A stretch of 33,797 nucleotides of DNA from Thermoplasmata archaeon (lineage in GTDB: Archaea > Thermoplasmatota > Thermoplasmata > Thermoplasmatales > Thermoplasmataceae). Shown in pieces: positions 22,276 through 25,899 of the stretch. The stretch's first letter is position 1. Each line of letters opens with the position of its first letter. The position numbers and the translations under genes are program-made. The notes below the pieces were generated by a model that was given only the letters and a program-made list of their open reading frames with translations, searched no databases and was not told the origin of the DNA. The stretch spans positions 1 to 33,797 of the forward strand of contig JAJZAR010000003.1 in assembly GCA_021799315.1 (NCBI GenBank). The letters run 5' to 3'.

Positions 22276-22548
22276 TCCTCCAGTCTTTTTTTAATCTATT
22301 TTAAAAATATTTTCTAACCATAAACTTTTAAATTTAACAAAACTAGCAAATTAACAGATTTTGATCTTTTATAATGTTTATGACTAATTAGATTTAAGAA
22401 TAAAACCCTGGAATTATGTACATCCTGAAACAATCATAGAAATGAAAAAGAACGATGGATAATGCATGCATACTCACTGTCAGAGTTATTGTATGTCTCA
22501 GACTTTTGACATAAATATGCCGATTCATGATCACATCTTCCACTTAGA

Positions 22549-22886
22549 CTTTGTCAAACACTCGTTGATATTCGACTTCCTGCCATCTGCTCTGCATCTT
22601 TTGACTGCTTCACAGCTTCATTTGGCAGGCCTTCATGGGATCGGTTCAGCCATGTCCGACCCCTGCCTGCAATGTTTATGCAGGCATTTACGTCTCGATC
22701 TATCTCAAGACAACATGAATCACACCTCAGTATTCTGCCATGCCCTATTCGGGTCAGAGACCCACATGCCGAGCATTCTTTACTGGTGTTTACCTTTGCT
22801 TTTCCTGTTGGCTCTATTTCAGTGTGAAATAACTTGCAATATATAAGCTTGAGTATGGCAAAAAATCAACTAAGAATTGACTTCCT
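22549..22886 (-). mobile_element. Internally deleted tnpB-element copy (MITE/PATE-like), ~338 bp
   Basis: 22549-22791 is collinear with 23706-23948 (offset 1157 bp); the right end 22865-22886 resembles the tnpB-proximal end of the full copy; flanked by TTCCACTTAGA / CTCCACTTAGA. Confidence 0.8.
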
Positions 22887-23042
22887 CTCCACTTAGAAAA
22901 GCAGTTCTATGCTGCCGACTTTTTCCGTGCTCAGCGACCCTGTTAGAATAAGCACTTTGGAGCAGGCAGTTTCTGAACCACCTCTGATATTCACACTCTA
23001 AGACTATTAAGATTAAATGTAGAGGAAAGATACAGATTCTAG

Positions 23043-23675: not shown

Positions 23676-23705
23676 ATGTCCTATTTCAATTGAACTTATG
23701 TTCGA

Positions 23706-24945
23706 CCTTGTCAATTATTCGTTGATATTTGACTTCCTGCCTTCTGCTCCACATCTTTTGACTGTTTCACAACTTCAATTGGCAGGCCTTTAACGGATCG
23801 TTTCAGCCATGTCCGACCCCTGCCTGCAATGTTTATGCAGGCATTTACGTCTCGATCTATCTCACGACCACATGAATCACACTTCAACATTCTATCGTGC
23901 TCTATTCGGGTCAGTGACCCACATGCCGAGCATTCCTTGCTTGTGTTCATTGTTTCTTCTCTTGTGAGTTCCAGGACAGGCAGTCCTTCCCAGTCAGCTT
24001 TGTAAGTGATCTGGGATGCAAGCATGCCATAGGGAAATGCATTCTTTAGCAGAAATCTGTAATTGGTTCCTCTTCTATCCCCTTTCTTTGTGATATTAAT
24101 GAGACCCTTGATATTTTCAAGAACAATCATCTCTTTGTTCTTCACAGCATCCTTAACAATAGCTTTGCTTGTTTCGTGGATAATCTGCATTGTTCTGTTT
24201 CTTTCTCGCTTTCCGTACTTTAATGCAATCTTTTTCTGTATCCTTCTGTCGTTTCTGTGGAAACGTGATTTCTTTTTTCTGTAACGTTGCTTGATCTCCA
24301 CGACCTCTGACAGATCATGGACTTCATGATGATCCTCATTACCAACGGTTGCATTTCTCAAGTTACGATCAACACCAACTGTAGTGGTGCATTCCATAGA
24401 ATCGACCTCTCTCCCAATTACGAGAGAGTGTGTATGCCGACAAGGTAAAGGAATGCACTTTCACCGTTGGTATTGAGTTTCGCACATATGCATTCAACGG
24501 GATCGATTCGTATACGCGTTTGGCTATGGGGATCATGAGTTTACTATTTTCTATCTTAAAACCGTAATATGTGGATAGCATGGGCTTTTCCACATGGGGC
24601 ATGGTTGCCTTCTGTTTTTTCTTCAATTTCTTTCTGTATGTTTTCACAAGTGCAACTGCTTTGTTGATGGCTTCAGGACAATAGTACGAAGGCATGTTAT
24701 AATCTGTAAGCTTATGGTAAATCTCCTTGGATACAGAATTTCTTGATGTGAGATTCTTCTCAATCATAAGGGTGATTGTAAGATTTACCATTTCGGTGAA
24801 CTTATGCATTAATGTGATCAGATCGTGAGTGGGAGTGAAATGCTGTTTTACAGCCTTGAATGCATACACAATCAGATATATTTTTATGATAAATAAATCT
24901 ACTCTCATGCAAAGGGCGGAGAAATCAACTATGAATTGACACCCT
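23706..24945 (-). mobile_element. tnpB-carrying element (no tnpA), ~1240 bp, with short TIRs and 11-bp flanking direct repeats CTTATGTTCGA (23695-23705 and 24946-24956)
   Basis: Left TIR 23709-23726 TGTCAATTATTCGTTGAT; right TIR 24924-24941 (reverse complement TGTCAATTCATAGTTGAT), 15/18 identical; perfect 11-bp direct repeats outside. Confidence 0.8.
23711..24908 (-). pseudogene. tnpB: TnpB (RuvC-like RNA-guided nuclease family), split by a frameshift into ORFs 24369..24908 and 23711..24397
   Basis: C-terminal ORF has 'GVDRNLRNATV', 'MIVLENIKGL', 'CSACGSLTRIEHDRMLKCDSCGREIDRDVNACINI'; N-terminal ORF has 'VYAFKAVKQHFTPTHDL'. The reading frame changes near 24430-24460. Confidence 0.88.
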
Positions 24946-25011
24946 CTTATGTTCGAAAGTTATATATTGTAATCAAAAATACAGGTATTATCACTACAAA
25001 GACTGATTATT

Positions 25012-25899
25012 ATGAGTGACGTTCTTCCTGAATTAGAGCAAAAGCGTGAGATTTTAAGAGATCTTGTTGAGAGCCATATTAAACGTAGAGACGAGTTGTC
25101 ACAAGAGGCACATCACTATGCCGAAGAGAGAGATAAGTTAAACCAGAAATCTAAAAGCATGCGAGAAGCCGTAATGAAAAAGATAGATGAGAAAGGAAAG
25201 CTCATTGAAAATATTCAGAAACTCCGAAATGAAAAAGAGGAGCATTTTGCTGAGTTATCTGAACTCAGAAAAGAGTTGAGAAAGTATAGAGATGCTTTCA
25301 AATCTCAGGGAGCAGACCCTTCAGAGCTGAAGAGAAAAGAGAGGGAACTCCAGAGACTGGAAAAGATGCAACAAACAACACCTCTTAACAAGGATGAGGA
25401 AAAGCGAGTGGTCCTTGACATAAGAAAACTTTCAAACGATATAAGAAAGACAAAGGATGTTGTTGAGAAGGAACTCAAAGAAAATGAAAACGTAAAAGTT
25501 GTTTCAGAAAAAATAAGCGAAAAGAGAAAGGTCGTCGACGAGTTCAAGAGACAAATTGACGGAATATCCAAAAATATTAATGTCCTTGGCGAAGAAATTA
25601 ACAAAGGTCTTCAGGAGCTTGACCAGACAAGAAAGGAAGCAGATGATTTCCATGAGAAATTTATAGAATTTAACAAGGCATCTGAGAGAGAGCACGAAGA
25701 GTTTATTAAGGCCAAAACCGACATGAGAGATATTGAAAAGATGATGGGCGGAATGGCCGCAAAAACCAAGGCAACAAGAAGGAAAGAAAGAGAAGGAGAA
25801 CTGCAGAGTAAGGCCAATGTATTATTTGATAAATTCAAGAACGGAGAACAGCTCACGACAGAAGACTTACTCATACTTCAAAAAGCTGGATTTCTCTAA
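25012..25899 (+). CDS. Archaeal coiled-coil protein (COG1340-like)
   Basis: 295 aa almost entirely Lys/Glu-rich coiled coil. Confidence 0.8.
   Translation: MSDVLPELEQKREILRDLVESHIKRRDELSQEAHHYAEERDKLNQKSKSMREAVMKKIDEKGKLIENIQKLRNEKEEHFAELSELRKELRKYRDAFKSQGADPSELKRKERELQRLEKMQQTTPLNKDEEKRVVLDIRKLSNDIRKTKDVVEKELKENENVKVVSEKISEKRKVVDEFKRQIDGISKNINVLGEEINKGLQELDQTRKEADDFHEKFIEFNKASEREHEEFIKAKTDMRDIEKMMGGMAAKTKATRRKEREGELQSKANVLFDKFKNGEQLTTEDLLILQKAGFL

Follow-up and report, generated by a model that had tools for sequence, protein, structure and literature searches.

A TnpB-bearing element with the putative ends of an ISH6-like DDE transposon in a Thermoplasmata archaeon

TnpB is an RNA-guided nuclease and the ancestor of Cas12. 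In prokaryotes TnpB has been described alongside Y1 or serine transposases; the Fanzor proteins, TnpB homologues of eukaryotes, occur in DDE transposons and Helitrons, including non-autonomous elements with ends that match those of a transposase-bearing relative (PMC3627910, PMC10711439). In the Chlamydomonas CRe-1,2,3 elements with Fanzor1, target-site duplications (TSDs) of 7-19 bp follow a TTTT (PMC3627910). Here we describe a TnpB element from a Thermoplasmata archaeon that looks like a non-autonomous relative of an ISH6-like insertion sequence (IS) with a DDE transposase. It lies on the minus strand at 23704..24946 (1,243 bp) of a 33,797-nucleotide stretch that is called the window below; the window is contig C190 of G000, an archaeal metagenome-assembled genome of 1.67 Mb in 214 contigs that is 72% complete. 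The element starts with GACCTTGTC and ends with GACACCCTC; in the sense of tnpB, its left end (LE) is at 24946 and its right end (RE) at 23704.

Like the Fanzor elements, this locus combines a TnpB homologue with terminal inverted repeats (TIRs) and a TSD, which in Chlamydomonas follows TTTT and here TTTY; unlike them, it is archaeal, its nuclease is of the TnpB type and its partner is ISH6-like. The Fanzor1 RNA scaffold takes up the TSD, whereas here the TSD varies and appears as the start of the guide. With the tnpB-only members of IS200/IS605 (IS1341-type) it shares tnpB, a right-end omega-RNA overlapping the tnpB 3' end and a target-adjacent motif (TAM) in the left flank. However, it has true TIRs, an 8-bp TSD between the TAM and the LE, no Y1 transposase found in G000, and a TAM that does not appear to be the target motif of its inferred transposase. 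IS607 elements, with their serine recombinase and neither TIRs nor TSD, differ in the latter two features; serine recombinases were not searched for in G000. The partner transposase is nearest to the ISH6 profile and the 8-bp TSD is also the value of the ISH6 family, although the TnpB element itself carries no transposase. Finally, as in miniature inverted-repeat transposable elements (MITEs) and other non-autonomous IS derivatives, there are IS ends without a transposase and several short internally deleted copies; unlike MITEs, the element has a conserved nuclease gene (nonsynonymous to synonymous rate ratio, dN/dS, about 0.15), a structured RNA end and a nuclease motif common to its insertions. 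Literature searches, with subscription journals mostly outside their coverage, recovered no prokaryotic TnpB on a DDE transposon; such an association is known in eukaryotes from Fanzor, and the prokaryotic case appears new.

The target-site duplication and the DDE partner

The initial annotation had reported an 11-bp direct repeat around the tnpB unit. This repeat, CTTATGTTCGA, is indeed present at 23695-23705 and 24946-24956 and reflects a real duplication, whose true length is 8 bp (TTATGTTC, at 23696..23703 beside the RE and at 24947..24954 beside the LE), the three extra bases being positional or due to chance. The first C of the 11-mer is a host base in its left-hand copy and the final base of the element in its right-hand copy, while its last GA is formed by the first two bases of the element on the left and by a host GAAAG on the right. 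These boundaries were set by alignment with 16 other elements having both ends and with the ends of the DDE IS described below. The inverted ends that had been placed at 23709-23726 and 24924-24941 were found there, within slightly longer repeats: the LE repeat spans 24924..24946 on the minus strand (GAGGGTGTCAATTCATAGTTGAT), and the RE repeat 23704..23726 on the plus strand (GACCTTGTCAATTATTCGTTGAT, related to the DDE IS right end GACATTGTCACATTCGCGTTGAT). An 8-mer match at the fixed offset of the element occurs at 4 of 32,477 positions of the window, placing it above chance.

A search for the element and its ends in its own and in related genomes, as the initial annotation had proposed for the latter, yielded across six genomes 17 elements whose two ends could both be read; these were aligned in tnpB orientation such that they start with GAGGGTGTC or equivalents and end with ...ACAAgGTC. 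The 8-bp duplication is exact in 11/17 and has at most one mismatch in 14/17 (1/272 in a control with mispaired ends), and the flanks agree in 13-17 of the 17 elements in columns 1-8, with a drop outside. The 8-mers vary between insertions and match within each: in G000 they are GAACATAA for the window element, CAAAGAAA on contig C96, TAAGTGGA for a second insertion in the window (window-b) and CATTCTTA on C33; elsewhere they include GATCCTGT in G043, AATCTAGG, GAATTTAA and GCATCTAA in G050, TTATTTTT in G116, and AGGGATTG and CAAATTTA in G099, among others. Given these variable, internally matched 8-mers and the mispaired controls, the TnpB element makes a genuine TSD of 8 bp. An unbiased scan of the complete genome G050 for TIR pairs with TSDs recovered four elements of the TnpB family with 0-1 mismatches in the 8-mer, together with three weaker, chance-like pairs; with a stricter filter the scan likewise recovers TnpB-family elements. 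A 7-bp TSD was dropped on comparison with the DDE IS ends. Separately, two G050 loci (L199 and L205) have the LE 8-mer and its TTTC in common with the RE 8-mer matching in one only, possibly a case of gene conversion across the left end.

A pattern search of G000 with the TIR core revealed that another element has these ends too. It lies on contig C15 and codes for part of a zinc-ribbon transposase. Intact relatives of this DDE transposase, of about 400 residues, are encoded by G022, G019, G002, G004, G042, G102 and others. Sister genomes thus carry the IS with its homologous ends, and G000 has fragments of it. The ISH6-like IS occurs in the same archaeal family as the host of the TnpB element. 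Its transposase scores E=4.5e-11 on the ISH6 profile, with 42.1 bits against a curated NCBIfam cut-off of 240, and is hence best described, on profile comparison, as a distant ISH6 relative rather than a member of the family. Its candidate DDE residues are invariant, and in a predicted model (mean pLDDT, the predicted confidence score, only 62) the confident core matches retroviral integrase catalytic cores and the Hermes transposase, in keeping with an RNase H/integrase fold. The C15 copy (L149) is itself seemingly interrupted by an element with an open reading frame (ORF) that looks like an IS3-type integrase.

The ends of the DDE IS (GACATTGTCAAAAATTAGTTGATTTCTCC and GACATTGTCACATTCGCGTTGATA) are similar to those of the TnpB elements (GAGGGTGTCAATTCATAGTTGATTTCTCC and GACTTTGTCAAATTTTCGTTGATA). 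The window LE and the left end of the DDE IS agree at 22/29 positions, 14 of them contiguous, and mean identities between the two sets are 19.3/29 for LE against LE and 18.1/29 for RE against RE, compared with 8.6 for shuffled sequences; the TnpB-element ends are closer to the DDE end of the same name, clearly for the LE and slightly for the RE. The DDE IS likewise has an 8-bp TSD (exact in seven of eight two-ended copies and 7/8 in the other), and in G022 excising it with one 8-mer restores an open frame of 504 codons. Homologous ends and equal TSD length thus lead us to read the ends of the TnpB element as those of a DDE transposon. The earlier proposal that a transposase that makes TSDs, for instance of the DDE type, moves the TnpB-carrying transposon in trans gains support from this IS, its homologous ends and the 8-bp TSD.

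The nuclease, its presumed RNA and the TAM-like motif

In the window, tnpB is split by a frameshift into two minus-strand ORFs: a 179-aa 5' part at 24369..24908, with the frame lost near 24400, and a 228-aa 3' part at 23711..24397 covering the RuvC and zinc-ribbon region (Cas12f1-like_TNB), which matches Pfam PF07282 with E=1.2e-18 and the guided_TnpB profile with E=9.4e-26. The related proteins are archaeal and annotated as TnpB and Cas12f-like. Among 10 proteins the RuvC D/E/D residues (D168, E252, D341) and the cysteines of the CxxC...CxxC motif (C314/C317/C331/C334) are invariant, and between genomes the gene has a dN/dS of about 0.14-0.19 without stops, consistent with purifying selection.

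The presumed 3' omega-RNA scaffold (23704..23803, minus strand) overlaps the 3' end of tnpB. Alignment of the last 100 nt of 20 elements points to two helices, both on the minus strand: P1 at 23736..23786 (arms CCTGCCA at 23780-23786 and AGGCAGG at 23736-23742), and P2, the terminal hairpin adjoining the presumed guide, at 23710..23733 (arms GTCAAA at 23728-23733 and ATTGAC at 23710-23715). Compensatory changes affect 4 of the 7 pairs of P1 (CCUGCCA/UGGCAGG), with variants such as CCCGCC/GGCGGG in G098 and ACCATCA/TGATGGT in G034. Over the right-end helices 94% of the cells are paired, and 27 cells show two-sided changes, against 7.4 in shuffled and at most 4 in slid alignments; the 150-nt end of the C96 copy folds with z=-3.4. 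An Rfam scan of the region gave no match. We take this covarying hairpin to be the presumed omega-RNA scaffold, which bears on the earlier caveat that IS605-like hairpins could mimic TIRs: a hairpin does exist at the right end, but it reads as omega-RNA and cannot explain variable 8-bp duplications. TnpB guides correspond to the sequence flanking the right end of the element. The presumed guide would accordingly occupy 23684..23703 on the minus strand (GAACATAAGTTCAATTGAAA), and TnpB biology together with the TAM position would have it begin at the first base of the TSD. With the right flank as the guide, an empty site of the form TTTY-8mer-flank amounts to a TAM plus a guide match.

The presumed TAM of the window element is 5'-TTTC at 24955..24958 on the minus strand (GAAA on the plus), directly before the TSD and within host sequence. 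TTT is found at -4..-2 upstream of the LE 8-mer at 23/23 TnpB-type left ends, and position -1 is C in 16 and T in 6, giving TTTY at 22/23 and TTTN at 23/23; at any other single position of the 60-bp flank a TTT begins in only 0-3 of the 23, except at the overlapping offsets -5 and -3. By contrast, just 4/26 DDE left ends have TTT at this position (p=4e-10), or 5/31 with five degenerate copies added (p=9e-11). A second TnpB lineage with other ends (AGCCTAGTAGAAATCC and GGCTTTGTAGAAATCC), from G034 and from G031 of a different family in the same order, has TTT there in 11/15 cases.

Archaeal promoters carry A-rich elements, and at the window locus (24955-25011) the insertion abuts CGAAAGTTATATAT, the strongly conserved, promoter-like motif of a coiled-coil gene at 25012. 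The window TTTC is the complement of a GAAA within this motif, which is also conserved in ten element-free relatives; hence, it is host sequence. That TTTY might be part of the element was ruled out, as the variable 8-mer intervenes and a conserved host motif stands at the window site. The recurrence of TTTY may stem from A-rich promoter elements, itself a possible insertion bias.

A model of retention and its rivals

We consider it likely that the element is a non-autonomous DDE transposon carrying TnpB and its omega-RNA and that it persists at sites which TnpB can cut again when they are empty. The transposase of the ISH6-like IS would act in trans, cutting at the ends and inserting the element with an 8-bp duplication, and the RE would encode an omega-RNA whose guide starts at the first base of that duplication. 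On an allele lacking the element, with TTTY, one 8-mer and the flank, TnpB would cut, and recombination from a filled copy would refill the site. The filled site would be spared because neither junction offers a full TAM plus guide match: at the left, the TAM is followed by no more than the 8-mer, and at the right AGTC, GGTC or AGCC stands in place of TTTY. The transposase itself would need no TTTY, and insertions that TnpB cannot defend would disappear over time, a loss that would best explain TTTY at TnpB-type left ends. The presence of all readable copies at sites that TnpB might recognise and cut when empty suggests that the nuclease prevents loss of the transposon. We lean, if only somewhat, towards the wider proposal that a prokaryotic TnpB switched from HUH or serine to DDE transposition and that TTTY preserves, much like a fossil, the trace of RNA-guided retention in two lineages with different end sequences.

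Several observations weigh against this retention model, and its main weakness lies in the distribution of the transposase. The DDE gene was not detected in the complete genome G050 with its five TnpB elements, or in the incomplete genomes G116, G099 and G034, and is seen in G000 as fragments only; where it is missing, either the mobilising enzyme has been lost or a different enzyme acts. TTTN is present at 5/31 DDE copies, including 3/8 in TnpB-bearing genomes, which leaves some likelihood of a target preference, and C33, a short derivative lacking a recognisable omega-RNA, has TTTA too. Some dependence exists among the 23 left ends (in G050, two copies have the same LE 8-mer), and 3/17 elements show no clear TSD. 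For no TnpB insertion could an empty allele with a single 8-mer be read, and the empty-site comparison at the window locus gave no proof, the upstream sequence of the relatives having diverged; nor was any TnpB insertion found whose removal clearly restored a gene frame. Both mobilisation in trans and the cleavage and refilling of empty sites are steps that we infer.

The main rival, which we regard as unlikely though deserving of attention, invokes a different, unseen transposase that makes an 8-bp TSD and prefers TTTY, so that the TAM would be the target of the transposase as in IS605, where it is the TnpA insertion motif (PMC11870625). The missing DDE genes of G050, G116, G099 and G034, the TTTA at C33 and the different end sequences of the G034-type elements would fit such an enzyme. 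Yet each end corresponds to its counterpart in the ISH6-like IS, with the 14 contiguous bases at the LE and the same TSD length, and the scan of the complete G050 revealed no multi-copy family recognisable as another transposase of this kind. Y1 transposition is not known to make a TSD. It is very improbable that this is an ordinary IS200/IS605 element moving as single-stranded DNA, its hairpins mimicking TIRs and its duplications being due to chance or a conserved target, even though such elements are the usual setting of TnpB, a hairpin is present at the right end and G050 has a separate open frame resembling Y1 TnpA. Unless Y1 enzymes can duplicate their targets, the matched variable 8-mers already refute it; moreover, the element has the ends of a DDE IS, and a Y1 gene (PF01797) was not found in G000 at its 72% completeness, while 5/14 control genomes have one. 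Thus, the earlier note that the element is unlike those of IS200/IS605 transposition agrees with our results. Known TnpBs cleave about 15-21 nt from the TAM. This hardly fits cuts at 0 and 8, as they would be needed were the duplication to arise from staggered cutting by TnpB itself and repair, with no transposase at all; the constant 8-bp TSD is also the value of the DDE IS and the ends are precise inverted repeats. The same geometry of TTTT followed by a TSD in the CRe-1,2,3 Fanzor1 elements speaks for this account (PMC3627910), to which we nevertheless give scant credence.

Where the TAM is the insertion motif of the transposase, as in IS605 (PMC11870625), genomes cannot tell whether TnpB shapes the persistence of its element. 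Here, the TAM and the transposase target appear decoupled, as seen in the 5/31 DDE insertions against 23/23 TnpB-type left ends, offering a natural and direct test of the retention or gene-drive model of TnpB. The system further suggests that prokaryotic TnpB can change its transposase type, as Fanzor did in eukaryotes, and provides a possible reading for the unexplained TTTT-before-TSD pattern of the Chlamydomonas Fanzor elements.

Copies and relatives

Beyond the window element, G000 has a full copy on C96 (90% identical, with an intact 386-aa tnpB), a half copy at the end of contig C25 and solo element ends. Short internally deleted copies measure 341-344 bp and also about 595 bp; those of about 340 bp in G000 (on C151 and at 22547-22887 of the window) keep the LE and the right-end 265 bp. 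The window derivative, at 22547..22887 on the minus strand (341 bp), retains the LE and the omega-RNA end without tnpB, is flanked by a TSD at 22539-22546 and 22888-22895 (TCCACTTA) and has GAAA (a TAM of TTTC) at 22896-22899. A 126-aa ORF at 22466-22846 spans it on the opposite strand and is probably no gene.

When the C96 protein was searched against 117 genomes of the order, strong matches came from G043, G050, G116, G098, G099 and G034 (G043 and G050 being one contig each), and a search of GTDB contigs and IMG/VR with the TnpB returned only distant relatives or no match. In the G034/G031 lineage the 8-bp duplications are exact in four cases and 7/8 in two within loci, and three further exact 8-mer pairs link ends of separate loci. 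These cross-pairings, across contigs or loci, involve the G034 loci L132, L134, L135 and L140 (GGAATTGA, GTAACTTC, GCTTCCAA) and suggest chimeric assembly joins at element copies or recombination between elements. More decayed left ends of the GATGTTGTCAATTTTTTGTTGAT type are found in G050 at about 275632, 402774, 1009774, 1280568 and 1313170, each following TTTT or TTTG plus an 8-mer, and form a second, older subfamily. A similar TIR also stands beside an ORF with a DUF3800 domain at positions 2793-2810 of G000 contig C53 (L148).
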